Shown here: piece by piece, positions 9,621 to 56,420 of the stretch
Numbering within the stretch: the first letter of the stretch is position 1
Layout of the letters: the number at the start of each line of letters is the position of its first letter
Assembly: GCF_003627815.1 (NCBI RefSeq)
Contig: NZ_CP032698.1
Location: forward strand, 7,130,001-7,194,000
DNA from: Streptomyces hundungensis
GTDB lineage: Bacteria; Actinomycetota; Actinomycetes; Streptomycetales; Streptomycetaceae
Reading direction: 5' to 3'
Length of the DNA stretch: 64,000 nt
Notes under the pieces: generated by a model
Database searches by the model: none
The model's input: the letters and a program-made list of their open reading frames with translations, nothing else
What the model was told of the DNA's origin: nothing
Made by a program: the position numbers and the translations under genes

Positions 9621-9682
9621 GACGACCACCATCGCGCCTCGGTACTACGTAGCACAAGCGAGACTTAGCGAGATGGTTCGGT

Positions 9683-9688
9683 TAGCAT
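9683..9688 (+). promoter_or_regulatory. leaderless -10 element of the lysR gene
   Basis: TAGCAT lies seven bases before the ATG at 9696, consistent with a leaderless transcript. The surrounding divergent region also has the dyad TTAGCGA (9665-9671) and TCGCTTA (9688-9694), nearly complementary, a candidate LysR box. Confidence 0.45.
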
Positions 9689-9695
9689 CGCTTAC

Positions 9696-10598
9696 ATGTT
9701 GAATCTGGAGCGTCTGCGCACCCTCGACGCGGTGGCCCGGCACGGCTCGGTGGGCGGCGCCGCCGACACCCTGCACGTGACCACCTCCGCCGTCTCCCAG
9801 CAGCTCGCCAAGCTGGAGCGCGAGGCCGGCCAGCCGCTGCTCGCCAAGAACGGGCGCGGGGTGCGGCTCACCGACGCGGGCCGCCTCCTCGCCGAGCACG
9901 CCGCGCGCATCCTCTCCCAAGTCCAGGTCGCGCAGGCCGAGTTGGAGGCCCAGCGGGACCGCGTCGTCGGCGAGCTCAGGATCGCGGGCTTCGCCACCGC
10001 CGCACGCGGCCTCTTCCCCGCCGCGCTGGCCTCGCTCCGCGCCGACCATCCGAAGCTGACGGTCCGCTCCGAGGAGCAGGAGGCCGACGAGTCGGTGCGG
10101 GGCGTGCTGCTCGGCGACCTCGACCTCGCGCTCGTCCTCGACTGGTACAACAAGCCGCTGCCGCTGCCCGACGGGCTCGCCAAGCGGGCCGTCCTCGACG
10201 ACGTGGCGGACGTGGCCCTGCCCGCGGGGCACCCGTTGGCCGCCCGCGAGGCGGTGGATTTGGAGGAGTTCGCCGAGGACGAGTGGATCACCTGGCCCTC
10301 GGGCGAGTTCTGCAACGAGTGGCTCCTCTTCACCCTGCGCGGCAAGGGCATCGAGCCGAGGATCGCCCATGTGGCCCGCGAACACGCCACGCAACTCGCC
10401 CTGGTCGAAGCCGGGTTGGGGGTCAGCATCGCCCCGCGCCTGGGCCGTGGCCCGGTGCCCGACGGGGTCAGGGTGGTCCCGGTGCGGGCCGCGATGAGCC
10501 GCCATGTGTACGCGGTGTGGCGCGCGGACGCCGACCGCAGACCCTCGATCCGGGCCGCGGTCGACGCGCTGGCGGCGGCGGGGCAGGGGCTGGAGTAG
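9696..10598 (+). CDS. LysR family transcriptional regulator
   Basis: 300 residues, standard length. The helix-turn-helix is at residues 1-60 (ERLRTLDAVARHGSVGGAAD, TSAVSQQLAKLE), followed by a periplasmic-binding-protein-like effector domain. It is divergent from EamA exporter (3). By the usual LysR logic it is expected to activate that exporter in response to a metabolite and to repress itself. Confidence 0.92.
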   Translation: MLNLERLRTLDAVARHGSVGGAADTLHVTTSAVSQQLAKLEREAGQPLLAKNGRGVRLTDAGRLLAEHAARILSQVQVAQAELEAQRDRVVGELRIAGFATAARGLFPAALASLRADHPKLTVRSEEQEADESVRGVLLGDLDLALVLDWYNKPLPLPDGLAKRAVLDDVADVALPAGHPLAAREAVDLEEFAEDEWITWPSGEFCNEWLLFTLRGKGIEPRIAHVAREHATQLALVEAGLGVSIAPRLGRGPVPDGVRVVPVRAAMSRHVYAVWRADADRRPSIRAAVDALAAAGQGLE

Positions 10599-10612
10599 GG
10601 GAGCGGGTGGTG

Positions 10613-10631
10613 GGCGGGCCCCGCGCCCGCC
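10613..10631 (+). terminator. hairpin after the lysR gene
   Basis: GGCGGGC (10613-10619) pairs with GCCCGCC (10625-10631) around a five-base loop, 15 bases past the lysR stop. The remaining 170 bases up to 10800 are GC-rich and degenerate, with no supported gene. Confidence 0.5.
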
Positions 10632-10800
10632 GCGGGTGGGTGCCTGAACCCGCCTCGGGTAGGCGCCCGCATCCGCAGCCGGCGGGCACGCGCACTCACA
10701 CCGGGCGCCCGCACCTACCGCCACCCGCGGTGGCCCACCCAAGGCCGCCACTCGCGGCAGGCACCCGCACCCAGGGCCGTCACAGATTCGGCCGTAGGCC

Positions 10801-11277
10801 TCAGCGCGCGAACGCGCCGCCCAGTTTGCGGAAGTCCCAGGACACCACGCGATCCGGGGTCAGCCGCAGCCACGCGTGCCGCCCGTCGTGGACCATCTCC
10901 TCCATGCCGAAGTTCTTGGCCGCGAACAGCGCCTCCACTTCGGCGAGTTCGGCGCACGGCTCACCGGTGCGCGGCGCCTCGCCGACCGGGACGACGCTGC
11001 CGCTGAGCTCCACCCCGCGCAGCTCCCCGTACTCCGTGCCGTCGTCCACCACCACCGCGACCCTCGGATCCTTGCCGAGCTGGGTCCAGCGCCGGCTACG
11101 GGTGATCGAGTACAGCCAGAGCGAGCCGCCGTGCCAGACGTACCAGAGGGGTGCGACATGTGGGCTACCGTCCGCCGAGACGGTGGCGACGCGGCAGGTG
11201 CGCCGGGCGCCGAGGAAGGCGTCGCGCTCCTCGTCACTCATCATGATCCGTCGGCCTCGGAGCTGTATGGCGGCCAT
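10801..11277 (-). CDS. pyridoxamine 5'-phosphate oxidase family protein, F420/FMN split barrel
   Basis: 158 residues from MAAIQLRGRRIMMSDEERDAFL behind GGAAGGG; the frame continues upstream without a ribosome site. The split-barrel motifs are RTCRVATVSADGSPHVAPLWYVW and DPRVAVVVDDGTEYGELRGVEL. This pattern is common in actinobacterial PPOX-class proteins that bind F420 or FMN. It is divergent from the isochorismatase-like gene and has no operon partners. Confidence 0.83.
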   Translation of the reverse strand: MAAIQLRGRRIMMSDEERDAFLGARRTCRVATVSADGSPHVAPLWYVWHGGSLWLYSITRSRRWTQLGKDPRVAVVVDDGTEYGELRGVELSGSVVPVGEAPRTGEPCAELAEVEALFAAKNFGMEEMVHDGRHAWLRLTPDRVVSWDFRKLGGAFAR

Positions 11278-41084: not shown

Positions 41085-41173
41085 GCGGCCAGTCGCCTGA
41101 GCGGCCGATGGCTTGATCAGTCGGTTGCCCGACCAGCCGGTGGCTTGATCGGCCGGTTGCCTGATCAGCCGGT
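41078..41173. repeat. tandem array, six 16-bp units
   Basis: Six contiguous 16-base units (consensus KGCYTGAKCRGCCGGT) span exactly 96 bases. The array contains both stop codons of the convergent acyltransferase (41082-41084) and EamA (41165-41167) genes. Several units hold the palindrome TGATCA. Confidence 0.85.
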
Positions 41174-42031
41174 CGCGAGCAGTACGGTGCCGACCAGCGC
41201 GAGCCCCGCGCCCGCCGCCTGCACCGTACGCAGCCGCTCCTTGAGAACGCCGCGGGCGGCGAGCGCGGTGACCACCGGGTAGAGCGAGGCGAGCACCGCC
41301 GCGACGGTGACCGGGCCCCGCTGGGCGGCGATCGCGTAGGTGCCGTTGGCGGCCACGTCGGCGAGGCCCACGAAGGCGAGGGCGGGCAGCGCGAGCCAGA
41401 CCGCGCGCGAGCCGCCGTCCGCGGGCAGGGCGGCGCCACCGCGCCGCACCGAGACCAGCAGGGCCGTGCCGCCGACGGCGACATTGGTGACGCGCTGCAC
41501 GAAGAGGGCGAGGAAGAGACCGGTGACGGTGGTGGACGCCTCGGAGATCAGGGCCATCACGGCGCCGAAGCCGAAGGCGGCGAGCAAGGTGAGGAGGACG
41601 GCCTGGCGTTGCACCGCGGCGCCCCGGAACTCGGGGCCGCCCGCGAGCAGGACGCCGGCCACGGCCACCGCGATCCCGGCGAACTGGAGCAGGCCGGGCC
41701 TCTCGCCCAGCGCGAGGCCGACCCCGACCGGCACCGCGACACCGAGCGAGCCGAGGGGTGAGACGACTCCCATGGGGCCGAGCGCCAGGGCCTTGTAGAA
41801 GCTGAGCATGGCGACCGGGCCCACGGCGCCCGCCGCGACCGCGAACCAGAGCTGCGGGGCCGCCTCGCGCAGCCCCCCGGTGGCGAGCACGACCGAGCCG
41901 AGCACCACCACGGCCACCGTCTGCGAGGCGACCACGACGGTCAGCGCGGGCATGCGCCGGGTCAGCAGTCCGCCCCCGAAGTCGGCCAGCCCCCACAGGA
42001 GGCTGGTGGCCAGGGCGAACAGTGCTGTCAT
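41165..42031 (-). CDS. EamA/DMT family exporter (4)
   Basis: 288 residues from MTALFALATSLLWGLADFGGGLL; an ATG ten codons upstream has less support. Ten membrane helices in two EamA repeats, with ASLYPVVTALAARGVLKERL in the second. It is divergent from an XRE-cupin regulator with a 7+7 bp inverted repeat between, so that regulator probably controls it in response to the exported compound. Confidence 0.88.
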   Translation of the reverse strand: MTALFALATSLLWGLADFGGGLLTRRMPALTVVVASQTVAVVVLGSVVLATGGLREAAPQLWFAVAAGAVGPVAMLSFYKALALGPMGVVSPLGSLGVAVPVGVGLALGERPGLLQFAGIAVAVAGVLLAGGPEFRGAAVQRQAVLLTLLAAFGFGAVMALISEASTTVTGLFLALFVQRVTNVAVGGTALLVSVRRGGAALPADGGSRAVWLALPALAFVGLADVAANGTYAIAAQRGPVTVAAVLASLYPVVTALAARGVLKERLRTVQAAGAGLALVGTVLLATG

Positions 42032-42075
42032 GAGGGGCCTCGCAGTACAGTGCGGTGACACGGGAGATCAGTGGG

Positions 42076-42165: not shown

Positions 42166-42738
42166 GTGTCGGACCTAGAACTGCTGACCCAGTCGCTGGC
42201 CCGCAACGTCAAGCGCTGGCGCACCGAGCGGGGCTTCACCCTCGAAGCGCTCGCGACGCGCGCCGGGGTCAGTCGCGGGATGCTCATCCAGATCGAGCAG
42301 GCCCGGACCAATCCCAGCGTGGGCACCGTGGTGAAGATCGGGGACGCGCTCGGCGTCAGCATCACCACGCTGCTCGACTACGAGAGCGGCCCCAAGGTGC
42401 GCATCGTCCCGCCCGATCAGGCCGTCCGGCTGTGGTCCACCGAGCGGGGGAGCTCCAGCACGCTGCTCGCCGGCACCGAGGCACCCGGCCCGCTGGAGAT
42501 GTGGCGTTGGCACCTGATGCCGGGCGACGGCAGTTCCTCGGACCCGCATCCCGCGGGGACCGTCGAGCTGATCCACGTCACCGAAGGCACCCTCACCCTC
42601 GCCGTGGACGGCGTCGACCATCCGGTTCCGGCGGGGCATTCGGCGGCCTTCGAGGCCAACGCCCCGCACGCCTACCGCAACGAGGGCTCCGAGCCGGTCG
42701 TGATGACGATGGCGATCTCCGTCCCGTTCGAACGCTGA
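42166..42738 (+). CDS. XRE family regulator with cupin sensor domain
   Basis: 190 residues from a GTG (VSDLELLTQSLARNVKRWRTERG). The helix-turn-helix is at residues 10-65 (FTLEALATRAGVSRGMLIQIEQARTNPSVGTVVKIGDALG). The C-terminal cupin is at residues 100-185 (MWRWHLMPGDGSSSDPHPAGTVELIHVTEGTLTLAVDG). The cupin usually binds the inducing metabolite. It is divergent from EamA exporter (4). The fxs cassette starts 517 bases downstream and need not be under its control. Confidence 0.92.
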   Translation: MSDLELLTQSLARNVKRWRTERGFTLEALATRAGVSRGMLIQIEQARTNPSVGTVVKIGDALGVSITTLLDYESGPKVRIVPPDQAVRLWSTERGSSSTLLAGTEAPGPLEMWRWHLMPGDGSSSDPHPAGTVELIHVTEGTLTLAVDGVDHPVPAGHSAAFEANAPHAYRNEGSEPVVMTMAISVPFER

Positions 42739-43255: not shown

Positions 43256-43447
43256 GTGGAAGCTCTCGTCTCGGCGGCCGTACGGCCCGGCCCCGCCACC
43301 CACCGGTCGGCCGACCGGGGACCGTCGCTGGCGCGGCGGGCCGCGGCGCAGAACGCCGGGAAGGCTCCGGCGAACCTGACCCGGGCGATGGCGGCCTGCG
43401 GCGACCCGCACGTTCCCGCCGCCTCCGCGTTCCAGTCGGCGCTCTGA
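43256..43447 (+). CDS. fxsA: FxsA-type RiPP precursor (FxSxx-COOH protein)
   Basis: 63 residues from GTG (AAAGG upstream). The peptide begins MEALVSAAVRPG and ends ...VPAASAFQSAL, so the last five residues Phe59-Gln60-Ser61-Ala62-Leu63 fit the FxSxx-COOH pattern that defines FxsA. The preceding region is Ala/Arg-rich with one Cys (AMAACGDPHVP). Its stop is 20 bases before the radical SAM maturase gene, the standard position for the substrate of FxsB. The modified site is expected at the C-terminal Phe/Ser core. The product's function is unknown. Confidence 0.85.
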   Translation: MEALVSAAVRPGPATHRSADRGPSLARRAAAQNAGKAPANLTRAMAACGDPHVPAASAFQSAL

Positions 43448-43467
43448 CGGGCGGAACGACTCCCCCC

Positions 43468-45894
43468 ATGGACCGCGCGATTGTGCCCGCCCTGTCGCAG
43501 TTCGTGCTGAAGGTACACAGCCGCTGTGATCTCGCGTGCGACCACTGTTACGTCTACGAGCACGCGGACACGAGCTGGCGGGGAAGGCCCCGGGCCGTCT
43601 CGCCGGAGATCCTCGCCCAGGTGGCGAACCGTATCGCCGAGCACGCCCGCCGCCATCGACTCCCCACCGTCCACGTCGTCCTGCACGGCGGAGAGCCCCT
43701 GCTCGCCGGCCCCGACCGGCTGCGCACCGCCGCCGACGAACTGCGCCGGGCCCTGCACGGAGTGAGCGCCCTCGATCTGCGCATGCACACCAACGGCGTG
43801 CTGCTCGACGAGGAGTTCTGCGAGCTCTTCCTCGAACTCGGCATCAAGGTCGGGGTGTCCCTCGACGGCGACAAGGTCTCCAACGACCGCCACCGGCGCT
43901 ACGCCGACGGCCGCAGCAGCCACGCCAAGGTCATCCGGGCGATCGAGCTCCTCAACCGCCCCCGCTACCGGCCCCTCTTCGCCGGCCTGCTCTGCACCAC
44001 CGACGTCGAGAACGACCCGGTCGCGGTGTACGACGCCCTCCTTGAACTCACGCCCCCGCGCATCGACTTCCTCCTCCCGCACGCCACCTGGGACACCCCG
44101 CCCCCGCGCCCCGGCGGCGCTCCCACGCCGTACGCGGACTGGCTCGACGCGATCTACCGGCGCTGGGACGCGGCGGGCCGGCCCGTGCCGGTCCGCATCT
44201 TCGACTCCGTACTGCGCACCCTGCGGGGCGAGAGCAGTCTGACCGAGTCGCTGGGGCTCGCGCCCGCCGACCTCGTCGTGATCGAGACCGACGGCACCTT
44301 CGAGCAGGCCGACAGCCTCAAGACCTCCTACGACGGGGCTCCGGCCACCGGCATGGACGTCTTCCGGCACTCGCTCGACGACGTCCTCCAGCACCCCGGC
44401 ATGCTCGCCCGCCAACAGGGCGCCGAGCAGCTCTGCGCCCAGTGCAGGGCCTGCCCGGTCGTCGAGTCCTGCGGCGGCGGCCTCTACGCCCACCGCTACC
44501 GGACCGGCAACGCCTTCGACAATCCCTCGGTGTTCTGCCCCGATCTGTTGGCCCTGGTCACCACCATCCGCGACAGGGAGGCCGCCGTGCCCGCACCGAC
44601 CCCGCAGTCCGCCCAACTGCCCCTGGACGAGCGGGACTTCGAGGAGCTGGCGGCCGGCTTCGGCGGGGCGGACACCGTCGGGCGCCTCGCGGCCGCCCAG
44701 CTCGACCTCAACCAGGAACTCCTCGCCGCCGTCAGCGCGCAGCGCATCGCGCTCTCGGACCGCGAGGCCGCCGAGGCCTGGGAGGTCCTGACGGACCTGG
44801 ACGCCGAGGTCCCCGACGAACTCGCCGGCGTCCTCGCCCACCCCTACACCAGGCCCTGGGCGCTCGATGTGCTCGGGGGCCGGGCGGCGCCCGCGGGCGG
44901 CCTCGCCGAGATCGCCGCCACCACGGCCCTGCGCGCCCGGCTGGAGCGGACCGTCACGGTGCCGCTGCGCGACACGACCCTGCGCCTGCCGGGCTTCGGC
45001 ACCGTGCGGCTCGACGTCGCCGCCACCCACGCCGAAGTGACGGCGGGCGCCGACGGGTTCACCGTGCGCGCCGGTGGCCGCCGGCTCGACATCGGCTGGC
45101 ACGAGGGCGTGGACGGGCTCACCCCGCACTGGCGGCCCGTACGCCTCTTCCAGGGCGAGGGCTGGAACGTGGCGATCGAGGACACCGACCCGCTGCGGGA
45201 CTGCCACGAGTGGCCCGTGGCCGAGCGGCTCCCGGTCGGCGAGGCCAAACTCTGGTCCGAGGACCTCACCGGCGCCTGGTCCCTGATCCGGCGCGAACTG
45301 CCCGCCTACGCCGACGGCGTGGCGGCGGGGCTGCGTCTGATCACCCCCCTGCATGCGCCGGACGGCAGCGATGTCAGCGCCGCCTGCAAGGACGCCTGGG
45401 GGGCGATCGGGGTGGCCAGGCCCGCCTCCCCCGAACAGCTCGCCCTCTTGATCGTCCACGAGTTCCAGCATGTGAAGCTCGCCGCCGTCCTCGACGCCGT
45501 CGACCTGTACGACAAGGCCGATCGCGGCCGCTACTACGCCCCCTGGCGCGAGGATCCCCGCCCGATCGGCGGCCTGCTCCAGGGAACGTATGCCCACATC
45601 GCGGTGACCGACTTCTGGCGGGTGCGCCGCGAGACGGCTCCGCTCGCCGCCGAACGCGGCGCCGCCGAGGCCGAGTTCGCCCGCTGGCGGCAGCAGACGG
45701 CACGGGCCGTGGAGGTGCTGCTCGGCTCGGGATCCCTCACGGACCTGGGGGAACGCTTCGTCGGGCGCATGGGCGAGACCGTGGCCGATTGGCGGGACGA
45801 GCCGGTCTCACCCGCCGCGTTCTCCGCCGCGGAAGAGTCCGCACGTCGTCACCGGGTCGCCTGGGAGGCCCGTGCCGAAGGCCGAACCGCCTGA
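43468..45894 (+). CDS. fxsB: FxsB-type radical SAM/SPASM maturase with HExxH domain
   Basis: 808 residues. The radical SAM cluster motif CxxxCxxC is Cys20, Cys24, Cys27 (SRCDLACDHCYVYEH). A SPASM-type cysteine set near residues 323-357 (CAQCRACP, SCGGG, FCPDL) binds auxiliary clusters. The C-terminal half carries His664-Glu-Phe-Gln-His668 (LLIVHEFQHVKLAAVLD), the HExxH domain characteristic of FxsB. The N-terminal part is expected to crosslink a Phe side chain of FxsA. The HExxH part may be a metalloprotease that trims or releases the product, though this is inference. Confidence 0.92.
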   Translation: MDRAIVPALSQFVLKVHSRCDLACDHCYVYEHADTSWRGRPRAVSPEILAQVANRIAEHARRHRLPTVHVVLHGGEPLLAGPDRLRTAADELRRALHGVSALDLRMHTNGVLLDEEFCELFLELGIKVGVSLDGDKVSNDRHRRYADGRSSHAKVIRAIELLNRPRYRPLFAGLLCTTDVENDPVAVYDALLELTPPRIDFLLPHATWDTPPPRPGGAPTPYADWLDAIYRRWDAAGRPVPVRIFDSVLRTLRGESSLTESLGLAPADLVVIETDGTFEQADSLKTSYDGAPATGMDVFRHSLDDVLQHPGMLARQQGAEQLCAQCRACPVVESCGGGLYAHRYRTGNAFDNPSVFCPDLLALVTTIRDREAAVPAPTPQSAQLPLDERDFEELAAGFGGADTVGRLAAAQLDLNQELLAAVSAQRIALSDREAAEAWEVLTDLDAEVPDELAGVLAHPYTRPWALDVLGGRAAPAGGLAEIAATTALRARLERTVTVPLRDTTLRLPGFGTVRLDVAATHAEVTAGADGFTVRAGGRRLDIGWHEGVDGLTPHWRPVRLFQGEGWNVAIEDTDPLRDCHEWPVAERLPVGEAKLWSEDLTGAWSLIRRELPAYADGVAAGLRLITPLHAPDGSDVSAACKDAWGAIGVARPASPEQLALLIVHEFQHVKLAAVLDAVDLYDKADRGRYYAPWREDPRPIGGLLQGTYAHIAVTDFWRVRRETAPLAAERGAAEAEFARWRQQTARAVEVLLGSGSLTDLGERFVGRMGETVADWRDEPVSPAAFSAAEESARRHRVAWEARAEGRTA

Positions 45895-45932
45895 ATTTAC
45901 CAGCGAATTGAGCGAATTCTCCCCTCATTTGA

Positions 45933-45982
45933 TTGATCCACTCCCGGAGCGCCGCATGATTTCGGTCATGATCTGATCGAAA
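45933..45982 (+). promoter_or_regulatory. promoter and inverted repeat between fxsB and fxsC
   Basis: TTGATC (45933-45938), 16 bases, CATGAT (45955-45960). Immediately downstream is the inverted repeat TTTCGGTCA (45960-45968) and TGATCGAAA (45974-45982), one mismatch, five-base spacer. It suggests fxsC-fxsT has its own regulated promoter within the 189-base gap. Confidence 0.5.
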
Positions 45983-46083
45983 CTCCCTGAGTGGATCTCC
46001 CCCGGGTTTGTTCGTTCTGTTCCGCCGGAGAATCCTCCGTTCCTACACTGAGGTCCCATCCACTTGGACCGGGGGAGACAGTG

Positions 46084-47430
46084 GTGCAGGGATCAGTGGG
46101 GGCCGGGGGAGACGAGCAACATCCCTATTTCTTTCTCAGCTACGCGCACACGCCGAAGAGCGACCCCAAGGACAAGGACCCGAACCTCTGGGTCCAGCGG
46201 TTCTTCCGGGACCTCTGCGCCCATGTGATGCAGTTGACGCCCCTCCCGGCCGGCAGCGCCGGCTTCATGGACGTGCAGATGCAGCCCGGGGAGGGGTGGC
46301 AGGAACGGCTCTCGGAGGCGCTCGCCTTCTGCAAGGTGTTCGTACCGCTCTATTCGCCGCGCTATTTCCTCAGCGAACAGTGCGGCCGGGAGTGGTTCGC
46401 CTTCTCCAGCCGGGCCGCCGCGCAAAACACCCGTAACAGCAGCAACAACAGCAACCCCGTCACCGGAATAGTGCCCGCGCTGTGGGTGCCCGTGCCCACC
46501 CGACAGCTCCCGCAGCCCGCGGAACGCCTTCAGTTCAACCACGCCACGTTCGGCGACGAATACGCCGACGAGGGCTTCTATGGACTCATCAAACTCAACT
46601 ACCTGCGGGACCAGTACGAACGTGCCGTCTACCGGCTGGCCAAACGCATCGTCAACGTGGCCCAGCAGACCCAACTGGAGCCCGGCGACCCCCACCAGGA
46701 CTACGCCAAGGTGCCGCCCGCCTTCGGCCCGGCCGGTGGGCCCGCCCGGGAAATGGAGGTCGCCGTCCTCGCCTGCTCGCGCTCCAGCCTCCCCACCGGA
46801 CGCAGCCCGGACTGCTACGGAACCGAGGCCCTGGACTGGAACCCGTACCACCCGACGTCCTCCAGACCGCTCGCCGACCACACCGTCGACGTCGTACGCA
46901 ATCTGAACTACACCGTGCACCTCAGCGACTTCGAGGCCGAACCCCACCGGCTCCTCGCCTCCGGCCCACCCGGACCCGGTCTGCTGCTGCTCGACCGCTG
47001 GGCGCTGGACGCCCGGCGCCGCCGCGAACTGCTCGACCAGCTCGGCGCCAGCCGACGGCCGTGGATCAGCGTCATGGTCCCGGGCAACGTGGCGGACCCC
47101 CAATCCCGCGCCCGCGACGAGGAGTTGTCGTCGCAGACCGACGCCGCGCTCTCCACCCGGGTCAACGAGAGCGACGGACACCGCACACCCAGCGGCGGAC
47201 TGCCCACCCTCGAAGCCTTCAGCAAGGCGATCCCGGGCGCCGTTAAGGCGGCGGTACGCCACTACGAGGCCCATGCGCCGACCTATCCACCGCCCGGCAG
47301 CGGCGGGCGGATGCCCCGGGTGCTTCCGGGCGGCATCGGCTACGGCGCACCGGGCCCCACTGGCCGCGGTCGCAGCACGGACCAGGAGAAGAACCACGGT
47401 GATAAGGCGGAGGGCTCATCAGATGACTGA
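46084..47430 (+). CDS. fxsC: FxsC-type protein with TIR-like N-terminal domain
   Basis: 448 residues from the second of two adjacent GTG codons, placed seven bases after GGGGGAGA. Residues 12-110 look TIR-like: HPYFFLSYAHTPKSDPKDKD, GFMDVQMQPGEGWQERLSEALAFCKVFVPLYSPRYFLSEQCGREWFAF; the Cys-Gly-Arg-Glu-Trp segment matches the TIR position of the NADase Glu. The remainder matches what I recall of the FxsC C-terminal domain. An Asn-rich loop (NTRNSSNNSN) follows the TIR. Its stop overlaps the FxsT start by eight bases, so the two are coupled. Confidence 0.85.
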   Translation: MQGSVGAGGDEQHPYFFLSYAHTPKSDPKDKDPNLWVQRFFRDLCAHVMQLTPLPAGSAGFMDVQMQPGEGWQERLSEALAFCKVFVPLYSPRYFLSEQCGREWFAFSSRAAAQNTRNSSNNSNPVTGIVPALWVPVPTRQLPQPAERLQFNHATFGDEYADEGFYGLIKLNYLRDQYERAVYRLAKRIVNVAQQTQLEPGDPHQDYAKVPPAFGPAGGPAREMEVAVLACSRSSLPTGRSPDCYGTEALDWNPYHPTSSRPLADHTVDVVRNLNYTVHLSDFEAEPHRLLASGPPGPGLLLLDRWALDARRRRELLDQLGASRRPWISVMVPGNVADPQSRARDEELSSQTDAALSTRVNESDGHRTPSGGLPTLEAFSKAIPGAVKAAVRHYEAHAPTYPPPGSGGRMPRVLPGGIGYGAPGPTGRGRSTDQEKNHGDKAEGSSDD

Positions 47431-50400
47431 GAACCGCAACGGGACCGTCGTCACGTTCTACTCGTACAAGGGCGGCACCGGACGGACCATGGCGCTGGCC
47501 AACTGCGCCTGGATCCTGGCGGCCAACGGGTACCGGGTGCTGGCGGTCGACTGGGACCTGGAGGCGCCAGGTCTGCACCGGTTCTTCCACCCGTTCCTCG
47601 ACCTCGCCGACCTGGAGGCGACCCCGGGCCTGATCAACCTGATCACCGACTACCAGGACGAGGCGCGCCGGCCCGCCGACCGCGACCCCGACTGGCACCG
47701 CGACTACGCCCGGGTCCGCCCCCACGCCACCTCCCTCAACTGGAACTTCCCCCAGGGCGGCAGCCTCGACTTCCTCTCCGCCGGACGGCGCAACCGCGAC
47801 TATCCGTCCATCGTCGGCAAGATGGACTGGGACGACTTCCACGAGCGGTTCGGCGGCGGCCAGTTCTTCGACGCCATGCGCGACGACATGCAGCGCCACT
47901 ACGACTACACCCTGATCGACAGCCGCACCGGCCTGAGCGACATCGCCGACATCTGCACCGTGCAGATGCCCGAAGTCCTCGTCGTCTGCTTCACCTTGAG
48001 CGACCAGAGCATCGACGGCGCCTCGGCGGTGGCCCGCGACATCGAGGAGCGCTACCACGAGCGGCGCATCCGCATCCTGCCCGTCCCGATGCGCATCGAC
48101 GACGGCGAGAAGGAGAAGGCCGACGCCGGCCGGGCCCTGGCCCGCGAGAGCTTCCCCGGCTTCCCCAGCGGCCTGAGCCCCGAGGAACTGGGCAACTACT
48201 GGGGCACCGTGGAGGTCCCCTACCGCCCCTTCTACGCGTACGAGGAGATCCTCGCCACCTTCGGCGACGCGCCCAACGTCTCCAGCTCCATGCTCAGCGC
48301 CTGCGAACGGCTCACCTCGGTCCTCACCGGCGGCCTGGTGAACTCGCTGCCGCCCATCGACGAGGCCGACCGGCTCACCCATGTCGCCGCCTACACCCGG
48401 CGCCGGCCCATGCCGCCGTCCAACCTGGTGCTTACCCATGTCGCCGAGGACCAGATGTGGGCCGACTGGCTGGTGTACGTCCTCACCGCGGCCGGTTTCC
48501 ACGTCGTGCCTGTCGATGTCCGCGCCCCCCGATCGAGCGCCACGGAGGCCGAGTTCACCTCCGGCGCCGGCTATCGCGTGATACCGGTCGTCTCCCAGGC
48601 CTACCTCAACTCCGAGCGGGCCAGGAGCTCCTGGGAGTCCGGGACCGGCCTCGACATCTCCGGCGGGCGGCGCCACATCCTGCCGGTGCGCGTCGGCGAC
48701 GTACGGCTCGGCCCGCCGCTGAGCAGCCGGGGCGTCATCGACCTCGTACGGCTCGACGAGGCCGACGCCGGTGCCGCCGTGCTCAACGCCCTCGACCGCT
48801 CCGAGGCGGTCGCCGCCCTGGCCTCCGGGCCTCCCGGGCCGCGCTACCCCGGCAGCGTCCCCAAGGTCTGGAACGTACGGCCCCGGCACGCCTGGTTCAC
48901 CGGCCGCACCTCCGTCCTGGAGCGGCTGCGTGACCAACTGCGCGGTGACAGCCGCTCCGCCCAGCGCTTCCCGCAGGTCCTCTACGGCCTCGGCGGCGTC
49001 GGCAAGACCCAGGTCGCGCGGGAGTACGCCCACCGGTTCCGCGCCGACTACGACCTGGTGTGGTGGATCGAGGCCGAGCAGCCCGACCGGGTGGTGTCCT
49101 CGCTCGCCGAGCTGGCCGCCGAGATGGACCTCAGGGCCGGTGACGTGGTGGCCGAGGCCGCGACCGCCGCCCTCCAGGCGCTGCGGCGCGGCGCGCCCTA
49201 CTCCCGCTGGCTGCTGATCTTCGACAACGTCGAAGACCTCGACCGGGCGCTGAAACTGCTCCCCGAGGACATCGAGCCCATCCCCGGCGAGACCTATGGT
49301 CACATCCTGGCGACCTGCCGCAACAAGCCCGCCTCCACCAAGGTGGAGGCCATCGAGGTAGAGGTCTTCACCCGGGCCGAGAGCATCGAGCACCTGTGCC
49401 GGCGGGTCACCAAACTCCCGACCGCCGACGCCGACCGGGTCGCCGACGCCGTCGGTGACCTGCCGCTCGCGGTCGAGGTCGCCGCCGCCTGGCTCGCCGA
49501 GACGGCGACCCCCGTCGACGCCTATGTGGAACAGCTCAGGGAGCAGAGCACCAAGGTCCTCTCGCTCGGCAAGCCCGAGGACTACTCGGAGCAGATCGGC
49601 GCGACCTGGAACATCTCCATCAGTCGGCTGCGCGATGAATCCAAGGCGGCGGTACGCCTGTTGGAGCTCTGCTCGTTCTTCTCCGCCGAGCCGATCTCGA
49701 TGCGGCTCATCGGCAGCGACTCGATGTTCGAGTCGCTCCTGCCGTACGACCCGGACCTGCGCGAGCGGTACATGCTGGGCAAGGTCATCCAGACCCTGAA
49801 CCGTTTCGCGCTCGCCAAGGTCGACCCCGCCGACAGCAGCATCCAGGTGCACCGGCTCGTCCAGGCGGCCGTAAGGGCAGGCCTCAGTGACGACGAGGTC
49901 GACACAGCCAAGCACGAGGTGCACCGCATCCTCGCCGAGGCCCGGCCCGTCGAGGGCGTCGACCGCGACAACCCCGTCAACGACCCCAAGAGCTGGCCCA
50001 GTTTCGAACTGATCTGGCCGCACCTGAGCGCCTCCGGCATCGCCGACTGCGACGAGGAGAAGGTCCGCCAGCTCATGGTCGACCGCATCCGCTATCTCCT
50101 CAAGCGCGGCGAGCTGGAGAGCGCCCGGGTGCTCGGCACCCAGCTCAACAAGGTCTGGACCCGCGAACTCGGCGAGAACGACCTCCAGACCCTCAACATC
50201 CGCTTCGAGCTGGCCAACGCGCTGCGCGCCCAGGGCAAGTACCAGGAGGCCCGGGCGATGGACGAGGACACCCTCGCCCGTCAGATCAGCGTCCTGCGCA
50301 AGGACCACCCGGGCGACGACCACCCCAGCATCCTCATCACCACCGGCAGCCTCGCCGCCGACCTGCGCGCCCTCGGCCGGTTCGACGAGGCCCTCACCCG

Positions 50401-51397
50401 GGACCTCACGATCTACCACGGCCTTCGCCAGATCTTCGGCGAGAACCACCCGCGCACCCTCATCGCGGCCAACAACCTCGCCATCGACTACCGGCTCAGC
50501 GGCGACAGCGAGGCTGCGCGCAGGCTCGACGAGGAGACGGTGGAACGCCGCAGCGCCCTCCTCGGCGAGGACCACCCCTTCACCCTCACCACCAAGGGCC
50601 ACCTGGGGCGGGACCTGCGCGAGAGCGGGGAGTACGCCGCCTCGGTACAGGTGCTGCGCGAGGTGGTCTCCGCGTTCGAGCGGGTGCTGAACGCGGATGT
50701 GCCCGAGGCGCTGCGCACCGCCAAGAGCCTCGCCGTGTCCCTGCGCAAGGCGGGCCATCCGCACGAGGCGAAGCGGCTGACCGAGGAGACGTACAACCGC
50801 TACCGGGGCCGGTACGGGACCAAGGCGCCGGACGCGCTCGCCTGCTGTCTGAACCTGGCGGCGGACTTCTCGGCGACCGGCGACAAGCAGGCCGCCTACG
50901 ACCTCTCCCTCCAGGCGCTCGAGGGCTACCAGGGCACCCTGGGCGAGGAGCACCCCTTCACCCTGGCCTGCCGCAACAACGTCTACATCTATCAGCGGGG
51001 CCTGGGGGCAGCCGAGGAGGCGGCGCGCGGCGGCGAGGACGTGCGGGCGGCCCTGGAGGAAGTCCTGGGCTCACGCCACCCGTTCACCCTCTCCGCGGCG
51101 ATCAACCTGGCCAACGCCTACGGCGACATGGGCCGGCCCGACCTGGCCGAACGCTGGGAACGGACCGCGCTCAAGGGCCTGTTGGAGCGCTTCGGGCCCA
51201 CCCACCCCGATGTGCTGGCCTGCCGCTCCAACCTGGCGATCACGCTGCGGGCCGCCGGGCGCGAGGACGAGGCGCAGCGGCTGCGGACCTCCATCCTGGA
51301 ACCCGCCGCGAAACAGCTGGGCGTGGACCATCCGATCGCGGAGGCGGCCCGGGCCTGGCGCCGCATCAACCGCGACCTGGAGCCGCAGCCGGTGTGA
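47423..51397 (+). CDS. fxsT: FxsT: ATPase, TIR-like, NB-ARC-like and TPR multidomain protein
   Basis: 1324 residues, ATG overlapping fxsC. Domains in order: ParA/MinD-type ATPase (deviant Walker A YKGGTGRT, residues 15-22; VDWDLEAPG; LIDSRTG) to about residue 300; TIR-like domain, about 333-460 (NLVLTHVAEDQMWADWLVYVL, VVPVDVRAP, YRVIPVVSQAYLNS); NB-ARC-like NTPase, about 495-780 (GLGGVGKT; LLIFDNVED; GDLPLAVEVAA); then about ten TPRs to the C-terminus with repeated LG-DHP-TL units. This STAND-like architecture suggests a switch or signalling scaffold for the Fxs peptide system. It is followed by a strong terminator. Confidence 0.93.
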   Translation: MTENRNGTVVTFYSYKGGTGRTMALANCAWILAANGYRVLAVDWDLEAPGLHRFFHPFLDLADLEATPGLINLITDYQDEARRPADRDPDWHRDYARVRPHATSLNWNFPQGGSLDFLSAGRRNRDYPSIVGKMDWDDFHERFGGGQFFDAMRDDMQRHYDYTLIDSRTGLSDIADICTVQMPEVLVVCFTLSDQSIDGASAVARDIEERYHERRIRILPVPMRIDDGEKEKADAGRALARESFPGFPSGLSPEELGNYWGTVEVPYRPFYAYEEILATFGDAPNVSSSMLSACERLTSVLTGGLVNSLPPIDEADRLTHVAAYTRRRPMPPSNLVLTHVAEDQMWADWLVYVLTAAGFHVVPVDVRAPRSSATEAEFTSGAGYRVIPVVSQAYLNSERARSSWESGTGLDISGGRRHILPVRVGDVRLGPPLSSRGVIDLVRLDEADAGAAVLNALDRSEAVAALASGPPGPRYPGSVPKVWNVRPRHAWFTGRTSVLERLRDQLRGDSRSAQRFPQVLYGLGGVGKTQVAREYAHRFRADYDLVWWIEAEQPDRVVSSLAELAAEMDLRAGDVVAEAATAALQALRRGAPYSRWLLIFDNVEDLDRALKLLPEDIEPIPGETYGHILATCRNKPASTKVEAIEVEVFTRAESIEHLCRRVTKLPTADADRVADAVGDLPLAVEVAAAWLAETATPVDAYVEQLREQSTKVLSLGKPEDYSEQIGATWNISISRLRDESKAAVRLLELCSFFSAEPISMRLIGSDSMFESLLPYDPDLRERYMLGKVIQTLNRFALAKVDPADSSIQVHRLVQAAVRAGLSDDEVDTAKHEVHRILAEARPVEGVDRDNPVNDPKSWPSFELIWPHLSASGIADCDEEKVRQLMVDRIRYLLKRGELESARVLGTQLNKVWTRELGENDLQTLNIRFELANALRAQGKYQEARAMDEDTLARQISVLRKDHPGDDHPSILITTGSLAADLRALGRFDEALTRDLTIYHGLRQIFGENHPRTLIAANNLAIDYRLSGDSEAARRLDEETVERRSALLGEDHPFTLTTKGHLGRDLRESGEYAASVQVLREVVSAFERVLNADVPEALRTAKSLAVSLRKAGHPHEAKRLTEETYNRYRGRYGTKAPDALACCLNLAADFSATGDKQAAYDLSLQALEGYQGTLGEEHPFTLACRNNVYIYQRGLGAAEEAARGGEDVRAALEEVLGSRHPFTLSAAINLANAYGDMGRPDLAERWERTALKGLLERFGPTHPDVLACRSNLAITLRAAGREDEAQRLRTSILEPAAKQLGVDHPIAEAARAWRRINRDLEPQPV

Positions 51398-51403
51398 CGT
51401 TCT

Positions 51404-51443
51404 CCGGGGAGCGCCCGGGCCGCGACGGCCCGCCGCTCCCCGG
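51404..51443 (+). terminator. terminator of the fxs cassette
   Basis: CCGGGGAGCG (51404-51413) and CGCTCCCCGG (51434-51443) form a perfect 10-bp stem enclosing a second hairpin (GGGCC/GGCCC), seven bases past the fxsT stop. Confidence 0.85.
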
Positions 51444-51499: not shown

Positions 51500-52363
51500 T
51501 CACCAGGTGGCCCAGCTCAGGACCCTGGTGAGCACCCGCAGCGCCCCGAAGTGGGCGGCGCCCCGCTCGACGATCAACTGGGCGCCCGGGATCCGCTCGG
51601 CCAGCCAGCGGGTGTGCTGCACGGGCGCGAACACGTCCTGTTCGCCGTGCCACAGCAGGACGGGAGCGGTGATGTCCTCGGGGCGGAACTCCCAGTCGGT
51701 GCTGAACGCCATCACGTCGTCCACCCAGCCGTCCGCCGAACTGCGCAGCGCCTCCTCGAAGTTGCGCTCCAGCATCGCCCGGATGCCGGCGTCCGCGACG
51801 ATGCCCCGGTCCGGCTTGGGCAGGTCGTGCCGCATGTCGGCGACGGAGCGGCGCGGATCGGAGCGGATGGTGATCGAGCGCATCTCCAGCGCGGTGGTCA
51901 ACTGCCCTTGCCCAGCAGCCGCGTTGATGTACTCGCGGACATTGGCCTCGGTCATCCCGTCGAACCAGTCGAGCCCCTGGGCGTCGCGCGGCGCGAGCCC
52001 CACCAGGGCCGCGGCCCTGGCCGTGCGGTCCGGGAGCAGCGCCGCACAGGCGAGCGCGTGCGGGGCGCCACCGGAGCGGCCCACGACGGCGAACTCGTCG
52101 ATGTCCAGCGCGTCGGCGATGGCCTCCACATCGGCCGCCGCGTGGGCCACCCGGCGCCCCGGCAGCCGGTCCGAATCTCCGTATCCCGGCCGGTCGAACG
52201 TGATGAGGCGGACGCCGAGCCGGTAGAGCACCGCACTGCGCGGGGCCGGGCCGAGCCGGCTCCCCGGGGTGCCGTGCAGCAGGAACACCGGTCTGCCCTT
52301 CGGGTTCCCATAATTCTCGACCGCTAAGTCCCGCCCGTCCCTGGTACGAATCAGCTCCCCCAA
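51500..52363 (-). CDS. alpha/beta-fold hydrolase
   Basis: 287 residues from a TTG (LGELIRTRDGRDLAVENYG) with GGGGGAGG six bases upstream. Alpha/beta hydrolase motifs: oxyanion HGTPGSRLG, nucleophile elbow VVGRSGGAPHA (Ser in G-x-S-x-G-like GRSGG), acid LLWHGEQDVF and His in ERGAAHFG. The substrate is unknown. It converges on the fxs cassette, with the fxs terminator between. Confidence 0.87.
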   Translation of the reverse strand: MGELIRTRDGRDLAVENYGNPKGRPVFLLHGTPGSRLGPAPRSAVLYRLGVRLITFDRPGYGDSDRLPGRRVAHAAADVEAIADALDIDEFAVVGRSGGAPHALACAALLPDRTARAAALVGLAPRDAQGLDWFDGMTEANVREYINAAAGQGQLTTALEMRSITIRSDPRRSVADMRHDLPKPDRGIVADAGIRAMLERNFEEALRSSADGWVDDVMAFSTDWEFRPEDITAPVLLWHGEQDVFAPVQHTRWLAERIPGAQLIVERGAAHFGALRVLTRVLSWATW

Positions 52364-52979: not shown

Positions 52980-53933
52980 TCAGGGCCCCGCGGTGACGTC
53001 CGCGTGCCGTCCGGCGCCTGTTCCCCGCCCCACCCGCCGCGCCGCCCCGTACTCCCGCACCAGCACCCCCACGGCCCCCCGCACCGACGGGCGGGCGGGG
53101 GATTTCAGGAGGGCGGGGCCCTTGTGGGTGGCCGCGGTCAGGGTGAGGGTGTCGAAGGCGATCAGGGCGCGGACCAGGGGGCGGCCCGGCTCCGGGACGA
53201 GGTGGGTCAGGGGGCTGCTCGCGGCGAGGGTGGTGCGGGCCCGGTCGAGCGCGGCGGCGATCAACGCACGGGTGCCGGGCAGATCGCGGGCCTGCTCCAG
53301 GTCCTCGCGGGTGACCCCACAGCGCTCCAACTCCTCGCGGGGCAGGGTGAGTCGACCGTCGGCGAGGTCCTCCGCGAGGTCGTTGACGAAGTCGATCCGC
53401 TGGGCGGCGTCGATATAGGTGCGGCATGCCGCGCGGAACTCCGTCGCGTCGCCGTCCGGGCCCAGCAGACAGGCCACGAGCATGAACGCGGGCAGCGAGT
53501 AGGCGTCGATGTAGGCCTGGTAATCCGCCTCCGTGGCGAAGCCCGTGAAGTCCAGGTCGGTGCGGGCGGTGCGCAGGTAGTCCTCGACGTGGTCGCGCAG
53601 GCGGGGGTGGGCCGTGATGGTGTTCAGGAGCGGACGGATCACCGGGTGGCCGCTGTCACCGTCGGCCAGGCCGTCGCGAACCTCGCGCTCCCATGCTCCG
53701 TAGGCCTCGGCCCGGGCGTCGAGGGGACCGCTGTCCAGCAGGTTGTCGCTGTGGTGCATGAACGCGGTCGCCGCGACCACGTGCGGGAACAGCGGTCGCG
53801 GCAGCAGCAGCCGGGCGGCCAGATAGGCGCTGCGCTTGAAGCGTGCGGCCAGTTCGCGCTGGCGGGTGTAGTCGTCGCGCAGCCCTGGGGCGCGGATGCC
53901 CGCGGCGTCGAGGGCCTGGTTCCACGCGCTCAT
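52980..53933 (-). CDS. phytoene/squalene synthase family protein
   Basis: 317 residues from MSAWNQALDAAG behind GGGAGAGG. It has a trans-isoprenyl diphosphate synthase head-to-head fold, with Asp-rich motifs reduced to HHSDNLLD (first) and DFVNDLAEDL (second). The substrate-pocket segment LPAFMLVACLLG is present. No carotenoid or hopanoid genes adjoin it, so squalene, phytoene or another prenyl product cannot be chosen. It lies in tandem with the CoA-binding protein and PL8 genes but is probably independent. Confidence 0.88.
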   Translation of the reverse strand: MSAWNQALDAAGIRAPGLRDDYTRQRELAARFKRSAYLAARLLLPRPLFPHVVAATAFMHHSDNLLDSGPLDARAEAYGAWEREVRDGLADGDSGHPVIRPLLNTITAHPRLRDHVEDYLRTARTDLDFTGFATEADYQAYIDAYSLPAFMLVACLLGPDGDATEFRAACRTYIDAAQRIDFVNDLAEDLADGRLTLPREELERCGVTREDLEQARDLPGTRALIAAALDRARTTLAASSPLTHLVPEPGRPLVRALIAFDTLTLTAATHKGPALLKSPARPSVRGAVGVLVREYGAARRVGRGTGAGRHADVTAGP

Positions 53934-53999
53934 CGATGACCTCTCCCGGGATGTGGATGCCGGGTTCCAGTGGATCACGGCCGCGCGAGAGGCCACCGC

Positions 54000-56420
54000 T
54001 CAGGCCGTGGTGAACGTGTGGGTGGCTCCGAACGACCCGGCGACCGCGATGTCCACCACCAGCCTCGGGTGGGTGGCGACCACGGTGACGGAGGGATCGG
54101 CGTGCCGGAGCCGGTGGCCCGCCCCCTCGACGGTCACCCGCACGGTGTCCTGCGTCTGCGTGGGGTCGGACAGGGCGAACGTCCACCCGATGGCGGTACG
54201 CCCCCACATCATCGCGGCGGCCCCCGACACCCGGACCCGTTCGACGGTGCCCGCCGTGAAGAACGACGCTGCCGTCAACTGCCCGTCCAGGCACACCGAT
54301 TGGGCCCGTCCCGTGTTGGCCAGTACGCTCCACCGCCCGCACGCCCGGCGGGTGTGGTCCACGGAGGCGCCCGGCAGCACCGCGTAGGCGTAGCTCGCGT
54401 CGGTCGGGTGGACGCCGTGGTCGAGGACGATCTTCTGGTAGCGGCGGGTGTAACGGGTCGCCGTGCCATGGGTGTTGGCGCCGGTGTCGATGCCTAGCCA
54501 GCTGCCGGCGCGGTCCTCGCGCAGGAGGGTGAGGGGCCCTCGGCCCGGCCCGTCGAGAAGTACGTATCCGGCCGTGCCCTCCAGGTGCAGCCACCGCGCG
54601 TCGGCTACGGCGCTGGGCGTGCCGGGCAGGGAGCGGTCCGGGCGGCCGTTGACGAGCAGCCGGGCGGAGCCCTCCTCGCCGAGGTTGCGGTTCTCGATGG
54701 CCGTGCGCACCGGGGCGCCCGAGGCGTCCGCGATGGCGGCGCCGAGGCAGATCACCGCGTCCGGGGTGAAGAACCAGGACTTCCTGGCCGACAGGGTGCC
54801 GTCCTGCGAGACGAAGTCCAGGCCGTGGGCGCCGTGGGCGTCGTCGAAGCGCACCCCGCCGGCGTACGAGGTGGCGGTGCGCGGCGGGTCGGCGAGCAGC
54901 GGGGGCGGTGGGGCGTCCTTCTCGGTGGTGCCCGGGAGCAGGGTGGCGTCCACGGTCGGCCAGTAGGCGTCGCTGTAGTGGCCCTGTCGGCCCGGCAGGA
55001 AGGTGTAGAGCACGCCGTCGCCCGTGTACCAGCCGTGCAGGTTCATGCCGTTGATGGACTCGTACCGGCAGATGCGCCGCGACCCCGTTCCGAGCGAGGC
55101 GGACCACCCGGGGGTGCTGTGCACCATCCGGTCCATCTGCGGGAACACCCGGTGCTCCCGGACCGCCGTGGTGGCGGCACGCGACCTGGACGTGAGCTGT
55201 TCGGCGAACTCGACCTCGGGTACGCCCACGGGTTGCAGCCCGCCCGAGTACCTGCCGACGTCGGCGACGTCGAGGTACGGCGCCCAGGTGCCCTCCGCGA
55301 TCCAGCGCGCGGCCAGAGACGTGAGGCGGGAGCGGGCGGGTTCGGCGGCGGTCCTGGCGAGAAGGACCACGGCCGCGATGAACTGGTGCCCGGCGTCGTG
55401 CCCCGTCTCGCCCTGCCGAGAGAGCATCCGGCCGCGCACCGGCTCCATCATCGACCCGGCGAACAGGAACGGCGCGTACACCTGGGTGACGGTCGACTCG
55501 AACATCTCCCTCACGGCGGACGGGAGTTGGGTGGAGGTGGCGTCGGTGACATGGGTCAGGGCGGCGATCGCGCTCAGGAGCACCAGACCGTAGTGACCCG
55601 GGTAGGGCACCACCTCGTGCTGGATGAAGGACCCGTCGGTGCGGTAGCCGTCGCCGTGGGTGGAGCGGCGGGTGAGGTCCGCGGCCCCCTGCCCCGCGAC
55701 GTCGGTCACCGCCGCGAGGCCGGCGGCCACCCGGGCTGAGTCTCCCGCGAGCGCCCCGGACACCACGGTGATGAGCGCCTTGTCCGCACGGTTGGCGCCG
55801 GTCTCCACCAACTCGGGTGTGTTGGTCCGGCGGTTGGGGTCGGCGACGAAGCGCAGCACGGGACGCAGCACGCGTTCGAGGTCGGCGGCCGGCAGACGGT
55901 CGCCGAGCGCCACGACGGTCTGGAGCAGCCAGTACGGCACCCCGATCTCGTAGGAGTACCAGTTGCCGATCTCCGCGGTGTTCTCGTTGTACTGCGTACG
56001 GTAGAGGGTGGTGAGCGCGGTCATGATGCGCTCGGGCTGATCGGGGCGGGCGGACAGCGCTGAGCCGGGCGTCGCCCAGGCCACGGCGATGGTCCTCAAC
56101 CGGTAGTACATGGTGGGGAAGTAGGTGCTGCCGGGCCCGGTCGGCAGGTCCGCCCAGAGCTGGTCGCGGGTCACATCCATGGCCGCGTCATGGGCGAGAG
56201 CCACCTGATCCAGGGCGGCCAGGGCCCGGTCGCGCCGGAGCGACGGGCGGTTCACACCGATTTGGAGCTCGCGGTACGCGGCCACGATCCGGGCATGGTC
56301 CCCGGCGTCCGAGGGCCCGAGCGGTGCGGCCGACGCGGGCTCACCGAGCCCGAGGGGGACCGCGGCGGCCACCGCCGCGGTTGCTCCGAAGCGCAGCACG
56401 TCTCTGCGGTCAAGCGACAT
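54000..56420 (-). CDS. polysaccharide lyase family 8, Tat-exported
   Basis: 806 residues. The Tat signal LDRRDVLRFGATAAVAAAVPLG is cleaved near ASA-AP. The N-terminal alpha/alpha toroid carries the PL8 catalytic residues: Asn210 in TGANRADKA, His268 and Tyr277 in DGSFIQHEVVPYPGHYG. The beta-sandwich domains follow. PL8 lyases split hyaluronate, chondroitin or xanthan by beta-elimination; the substrate cannot be told from sequence. Secreted polymer degradation is expected. Confidence 0.93.
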   Translation of the reverse strand: MSLDRRDVLRFGATAAVAAAVPLGLGEPASAAPLGPSDAGDHARIVAAYRELQIGVNRPSLRRDRALAALDQVALAHDAAMDVTRDQLWADLPTGPGSTYFPTMYYRLRTIAVAWATPGSALSARPDQPERIMTALTTLYRTQYNENTAEIGNWYSYEIGVPYWLLQTVVALGDRLPAADLERVLRPVLRFVADPNRRTNTPELVETGANRADKALITVVSGALAGDSARVAAGLAAVTDVAGQGAADLTRRSTHGDGYRTDGSFIQHEVVPYPGHYGLVLLSAIAALTHVTDATSTQLPSAVREMFESTVTQVYAPFLFAGSMMEPVRGRMLSRQGETGHDAGHQFIAAVVLLARTAAEPARSRLTSLAARWIAEGTWAPYLDVADVGRYSGGLQPVGVPEVEFAEQLTSRSRAATTAVREHRVFPQMDRMVHSTPGWSASLGTGSRRICRYESINGMNLHGWYTGDGVLYTFLPGRQGHYSDAYWPTVDATLLPGTTEKDAPPPPLLADPPRTATSYAGGVRFDDAHGAHGLDFVSQDGTLSARKSWFFTPDAVICLGAAIADASGAPVRTAIENRNLGEEGSARLLVNGRPDRSLPGTPSAVADARWLHLEGTAGYVLLDGPGRGPLTLLREDRAGSWLGIDTGANTHGTATRYTRRYQKIVLDHGVHPTDASYAYAVLPGASVDHTRRACGRWSVLANTGRAQSVCLDGQLTAASFFTAGTVERVRVSGAAAMMWGRTAIGWTFALSDPTQTQDTVRVTVEGAGHRLRHADPSVTVVATHPRLVVDIAVAGSFGATHTFTTA

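Follow-up and report, generated by a model that had tools for sequence, protein, structure and literature searches.

An Fxs peptide cassette of Streptomyces hundungensis with a linked serine hydrolase gene and its candidate role as a peptide-gated switch

How the matured peptide of an Fxs cassette is released, and what role it then plays, are the main questions that these gene sets raise. We addressed them for the cassette of Streptomyces hundungensis contained in a 64,000-nucleotide stretch of the 8.39-Mb genome (G000:C1:7130001-7194000), hereafter called the window. A preliminary description of this DNA had presented four consecutive genes on one strand as a complete cassette, comprising a short precursor (FxsA), a radical S-adenosylmethionine (rSAM)/SPASM maturase (FxsB), a TIR-like protein (FxsC) and a giant ATPase with a second TIR-like domain (FxsT). 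The order and coordinates of these genes were as described, all four being encoded on the forward strand over positions 43256 to 51397 (Table 1). The cassette was, however, not complete, as the description had stopped one gene short: a convergent gene for an alpha/beta (serine) hydrolase belongs to it by linkage, and makes peptide release or turnover directly testable.

Our preferred reading, to which we give a probability of about 0.42, builds on the gene content, linkage, motif conservation and modelled folds of FxsC and the hydrolase, which were observed directly. The products of fxsA and fxsB would make and modify a peptide, those of fxsC and fxsT would sense it and act, and the hydrolase would stand on the peptide side, so that the matured peptide feeds a STAND/TIR switch and is released or degraded by the hydrolase. 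If true, a ribosomal cyclophane peptide would here gate an immune-type switch in a bacterium. The system is of a known kind, and published chemistry together with a 2020 description of a standalone actinobacterial peptide-processing system (Kaur et al., eLife, PMC7159879) keep its novelty modest; what appears to be new, judged from sequence comparisons, is the hydrolase linkage, the decay of the HExxH motif as an argument about release, and the split between the two TIR domains.

Table 1. Features of the cassette, in window coordinates
Feature	Position	Strand	Remarks
fxsA	43256..43447	+	63-aa precursor, GTG start, C-terminus ...PAASAFQSAL; place, start and end conserved in relatives
Core A-F-Q-S-A-L	43427..43444	+	conserved; cyclophane expected between Phe and Ser
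fxsB	43468..45894	+	rSAM/SPASM maturase (residues 9-368) fused to alpha-ketoglutarate (aKG)-HExxH domain
HEFQH metal motif of HExxH domain	45457..45471	+	intact; residues 664-668
Promoter-like stretch upstream of fxsC	46020..46049	+	TTCCGC-N18-TACACT; 12-locus alignment by eye, consensus only
fxsC	46084..47430	+	TIR domain (residues 12-195) and flavodoxin-like domain (residues 218-396)
fxsT	47423..51397	+	MinD/ParA-like KGGTGRT domain, TIR (residues 337-448), NB-ARC/STAND (about residues 492-711), TPR repeats
Stable hairpin between convergent fxsT and hydrolase genes	51404..51443		bidirectional terminator candidate
Alpha/beta (serine) hydrolase gene, fifth cassette gene	51500..52363	-	287 residues with the start used in relatives; open frame reaches 52507; convergent with fxsT

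A fifth gene linked to the cassette

Gene co-occurrence, which the preliminary description had named as a way of checking its proposal, was compared among 150 Streptomyces genomes. The hydrolase gene was found near 49 of the 56 high-scoring FxsB genes (matches above 540 bits, corresponding to the HExxH-extended type, an extension not confirmed one by one) versus 1 of the 84 lower-scoring ones (380-495 bits), in a comparison that left out two matches below 300 bits and one partial gene (G028:C1149). The encoded protein scored 72 bits against PF00561 (cut-off 25.8), its catalytic triad was conserved, and its structural model (pLDDT, a confidence score, 92) had an alpha/beta-hydrolase fold. As a prolyl aminopeptidase of the S33 type it scored below the cut-off (TIGR01249, 49.8 bits versus 259.75). 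Based on the linkage, the hydrolase is a member of the cassette, which extends past position 51397.

The hydrolase was not mentioned as an Fxs partner in the available parts of the literature examined; Morishita 2024, Phan and Morinaka 2022, and Haft and Basu 2011 might mention it. The alpha/beta-hydrolase that Kaur et al. name goes with caspases (PMC7159879). The crocagin protease CgnD provides a parallel in that it is a hydrolase annotated as a Ser esterase that removes the leader of a ribosomally synthesized and post-translationally modified peptide (RiPP), but it belongs to the SGNH/GDSL superfamily and the window protein to the alpha/beta-hydrolase family (PMC10885120).

Distances on the trees of the hydrolase, FxsB, FxsC and FxsT were correlated (Pearson 0.82-0.94 over 65 loci), although common descent by itself could produce such a correlation. 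In one clade with an intact HExxH motif (L068, L119, L122, L124 and L128) no hydrolase gene stood beside the cassette and homologues occurred elsewhere in the genome, genome-wide matches being a lower bound with at most 15 hydrolase candidates scored per genome. In this clade the hydrolase may be supplied in trans.

Precursor, maturase and peptide release

The family assignment made in the preliminary description stood for three of the four proteins by profile hidden Markov model (HMM), FxsB, FxsC and FxsT all passing the curated NCBIfam cut-offs; for the precursor it held by position and motif. FxsA had no match to TIGR04268 or to the SjiA model NF040585 at an E limit of 10 (HMMER filters discard most weak matches), and nothing in the genome exceeded the TIGR04268 cut-off among the 150 of 615 candidates scored. 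The description had named such a failure as grounds for doubting its proposal, and for this protein the result counts against that proposal. The same model was passed by one of seven other fused-type precursors and by both unfused-type precursors. We regard the fxsA frame as real despite the HMM result because relatives conserve its position, its start and its FxSxx end: an open reading frame (ORF) of at least 55 residues ending in FxSxx lay no more than 500 nt upstream at 77 of 85 FxsB-fusion loci, versus 0 of 277 ORF ends when this stretch was read on its antisense strand and 0 of 153 inside fxsB. The GTG start was shared with six near relatives; among eight loci of the clade that lie further away, all but L045 had an ATG aligned with it. 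Between 8 and 20 of the 63 residues differed from the six relatives, all in a variable leader, and the terminal AFQSAL was identical in all six. By these comparisons FxsA is the cognate FxSxx precursor, outside both models.

The maturase with its HExxH tail was assigned as first described. FxsB scored 581 bits against TIGR04269 (cut-off 370, thus 211 above), its CxxxCxxC motif being CDLACDHC at residue 20, and 182 bits against the aKG-HExxH model TIGR04267 (cut-off 40). The closest solved chains were 22nu to residues 381-780 (295 bits) and the rSAM domain of ChlB, 9gm3, to residues 7-370 (249 bits). We take IPR026335 to be the FxsB family.

The peptide product had been considered not to be established, but for maturases of this type the chemistry of cross-linking is known: MscB (IPR026335) links Phe C4 to Ser C-beta in a three-residue Phe-X-Ser cyclophane (PMC11002830). 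By analogy with such triceptides, with fused rSAM/aKG-HExxH enzymes and with ChlB/ChlH, from which the window differs in its precursor falling outside the two models, FxsB would close the same kind of ring in the C-terminal F-Q-S, linking its Phe to its Ser. In systems of the fused or ChlB-ChlH type beta-hydroxylation depends on the cyclophane, and the aKG-HEXXH enzymes PflC and PosC act on Gln (Asn in a variant) by beta-hydroxylation and on Ala by oxidative cleavage of the backbone (PMC12636437). These two enzymes have the domain class of the window HExxH domain but come from Pseudomonas RiPP clusters for which the available parts mention no STAND/TIR partners (PMC12636437). Because they do both, hydroxylation at Gln or a cut at Ala would each fit the A-F-Q core, and the intact HExxH domain of FxsB would most likely oxidise the core by hydroxylating Gln at C-beta.

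A different role for this domain, that of a metallopeptidase cutting FxsA, was assigned in 2020 for a system that shares with the window the FxSxx precursor, the rSAM/SPASM maturase, the HExxH domain, and the AP-ATPase carrying both TPRs and a further, MinD/ParA-like domain (PMC7159879); it gains further support from PflC, which shows proteolysis without its leader (PMC12636437). Current models, however, class the family as peptide beta-hydroxylases, and by sequence the window domain is a member with predicted activity of that kind. Moreover, the motif was lost in 49 of 55 FxsB fusions in an even draw and in 52 of 85 over all fused loci, the window being among those in which it is intact (197 bits against NF040587, the NCBI model of the inactivated form, cut-off 225). 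This table of fusions was drawn up without L104 (290 residues, its rSAM domain interrupted by a stop codon) and L117 (contig end); L047 had no FxsB, and L127, L129 and L131 were standalone HExxH proteins. Because the motif is lost in most sampled cassettes, HExxH can hardly be a general leader peptidase or release step, and the spread of dead domains makes the published peptidase role very unlikely. Precursors and hydrolase persisted in these cassettes, the hydrolase in 46 of the 47 HExxH-lost loci having FxsT. As most of the relatives sampled have a dead HExxH domain and the hydrolase is kept, the hydrolase is the likelier candidate for leader removal, and it, rather than HExxH, would free, trim or later destroy the peptide.

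The core sequence varied with the state of the HExxH motif. Precursors beside an intact motif had [A/R/K]-F-[Q/N]-S in all 32 cases, versus 1 of 50 beside a lost motif with Ala, Arg or Lys before the Phe; the residue was Thr or Ile in 41 of the latter. In the middle position, Gln or Asn stood in all 32 precursors of the intact group and in 31 of the 50 of the lost group (no FxsA was entered for L105, L106 and L148). We did not accept this covariation as proof, and keep it as a working idea, because the HExxH state changes only four times on the rSAM-domain tree, with three independent pairs on starred branches, numbers with which a sign test cannot reach significance. L083 and L105 had lost HExxH and kept the old core.

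A fuller version of the five-gene TIR/STAND switch, in which a dedicated serine hydrolase releases or erases an oxidised peptide and the signal comes in two chemical dialects, is advanced tentatively and judged doubtful as a whole. On HExxH-active branches [A/R/K]-F-[Q/N]-S would be hydroxylated, or its Ala oxidatively cut to give a keto-capped cyclophane; HExxH-dead branches would mostly use a T/I-F-x-S core.

Two kinds of irregular precursor were also seen. Those of L085 and L095, whose variant cores lack Ser, end in T-F-D-A-A-[L/I] with Ala in place of the FxS Ser, so that the cross-link partner would, by sequence, be Ala C-beta. At L105, where the core reads AAFNS by eye, the FxsA frame seems to run beyond the FxSxx core into the fxsB start.

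FxsC and FxsT as a candidate sensor and effector

Scanned as a longer, 479-residue frame from 45991, FxsC scored 229 bits against NF040588 (cut-off 130) and 170 against TIGR04276 (cut-off 55), respectively 99 and 115 above; the start used in relatives gives 448 residues. Its structural model had a TIR fold, for which the best structural match was the TIR of the defence system SPARTA. Residue E103 (E134 in the longer frame) was kept in 89 of 92 sequences and, from its S..C..E motif, is presumably the catalytic TIR Glu. With this fold and conserved Glu, FxsC is a candidate NADase-type TIR protein.

FxsT scored 1031 bits against NF040586 (cut-off 300, thus 731 above), 138 against NF047398 (cut-off 90) and 30.9 against the NB-ARC model (cut-off 23.5). 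The P-loop, GLGGVGKT, had K528 in 95 of 95 sequences, and H810, which we take to be the MHD-like His of STAND NTPases, was present in 94 of 95; on these features FxsT is classed as a STAND NTPase. At position 403 of its TIR, in the register of the catalytic-type Glu, Glu occurred in 1 of 95 sequences, Val in 37, Leu in 23 and Ala in 14, and the window has Ser. Position 405, with Glu in 39 of 95 including the window, was tried as the Glu site and dropped when a register check moved the site to 403. The preliminary description was thus right that both proteins have TIR domains, which are split: FxsC has the catalytic-type Glu and FxsT does not. This split points to FxsC as the candidate for NAD+ cleavage.

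In our preferred reading FxsT would read the peptide or its loss, its TIR would probably only dock to FxsC, and the FxsC TIR would then cut NAD+ or make a nucleotide signal, by which the cell would be halted or killed. The earlier hint at signalling or self-recognition fits a STAND protein with an invariant P-loop lysine and TIRs with and without the Glu; as an idea it was not new, peptide-processing sets having been proposed in 2020 to amplify conflict systems (PMC7159879, section 24). That proposal, the STAND, TIR and TPR architecture and the SPARTA-like fold of the FxsC model would also suit anti-phage defence, with peptide maturation as the monitored process or trigger and FxsT/FxsC as executioner. 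PADLOC, a library without cut-offs, gave only a viperin-like rSAM match for FxsB (31 bits) and PDC-M28B for FxsT (72 bits, best over residues 6-54 in the MinD-like part), with none for FxsC or the hydrolase. Moreover, the upstream flanks of the cassettes fell into few groups (41, 13, 11, 5 and 4 loci), unlike typical mobile defence islands, and we regard defence as a rather unlikely explanation.

The peptide could instead be a secreted RiPP antibiotic or bacteriocin, with FxsC and FxsT as its regulators or immunity proteins, as FxsB falls among cyclophane-forming maturases next to the enzymes of dynobactin- and darobactin-type antibiotics, and a gene for an EamA-family transporter lies at 41165-42061. 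The EamA gene, however, was confined to 12 of the 85 fused loci, each of them having the window's flank, and was rejected as a cassette part; a scan of neighbouring genes recognised no exporter dedicated to a peptide. FxsA/FxsB also occurred without adjacent FxsC/FxsT (L049, L102), and FxsC/FxsT without FxsB (L151-L153, from six loci examined of 13 that were defined against part of the lower-scoring FxsB list). Such uncoupling disfavours an obligate toxin-immunity pair, and we consider the antibiotic explanation quite improbable. Two of these FxsC-FxsT pairs without FxsAB (L152, L153) had a divergent MinD-TIR protein and one further TIR protein as neighbours, and FxsC/FxsT may be a sensor/effector pair with inputs other than the FxsAB peptide.

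L049 is a second FxsA/FxsB pair in the window's own genome (G000:C1:6689006-6690085; 8986-11175 of the locus, forward strand), with the core ...SLFSSAL, HExxH lost and 339 bits against NF040587. No FxsC, FxsT or hydrolase was found within the 19 kb examined. The pair belongs to the 41-locus flank group together with 40 other HExxH-lost loci and is probably the remnant of a paralogous cassette; its lone persistence, too, argues against obligate pairing of toxin and immunity.

Spread, neighbouring genes and intergenic signals

FxsB exceeded its cut-off in 94 of the 150 Streptomyces genomes and FxsC in 54, and the FxsT-type family was matched in at least 147, at least 139 of them over the cut-off. 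All ten named FxsC relatives were from Streptomyces, and in a class-wide draw 36 of 394 genomes had FxsC over its cut-off. The few common upstream flanks point to long vertical residence of the cassettes. Together with the spread of FxsT, the common chromosomal flanks would be consistent with a vertically kept developmental or stress switch of mycelial life, one that would sense the state of the peptide and restrict NAD+ or growth. Against such a switch, FxsC was not over the cut-off in 96 of 150 genomes and no regulator partner was shown; the adjacent XRE-cupin gene (42172-42735) occurred in 32 of 61 genomes of relatives, FxsC in 10. On balance we think this explanation unlikely, and for the same counts the XRE-cupin gene was rejected as part of the cassette. 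On the other side of the cassette, Pfam matches identify a squalene/phytoene synthase-family gene and, beside it, one for a family 8 polysaccharide lyase (52983-56420, reverse strand), and no test in this analysis linked either to it.

The strong terminator of the preliminary description is a very stable hairpin, but it has no U tract and sits between convergent genes. The promoter-like stretch before fxsC was conserved amid a diverging gap in the 12 loci aligned, L082 having TAGACT. As fxsC has its own conserved stretch of this kind, on a consensus reading, the cassette genes are probably not a single transcript. The gap between fxsB and fxsC also holds inverted repeats (within 45895-46019), GATCCACTC...GAGTGGATC with an inner CATGA...TCATG, conserved in six close relatives except for one inner-arm base in L044, which are a possible operator or RNA structure.

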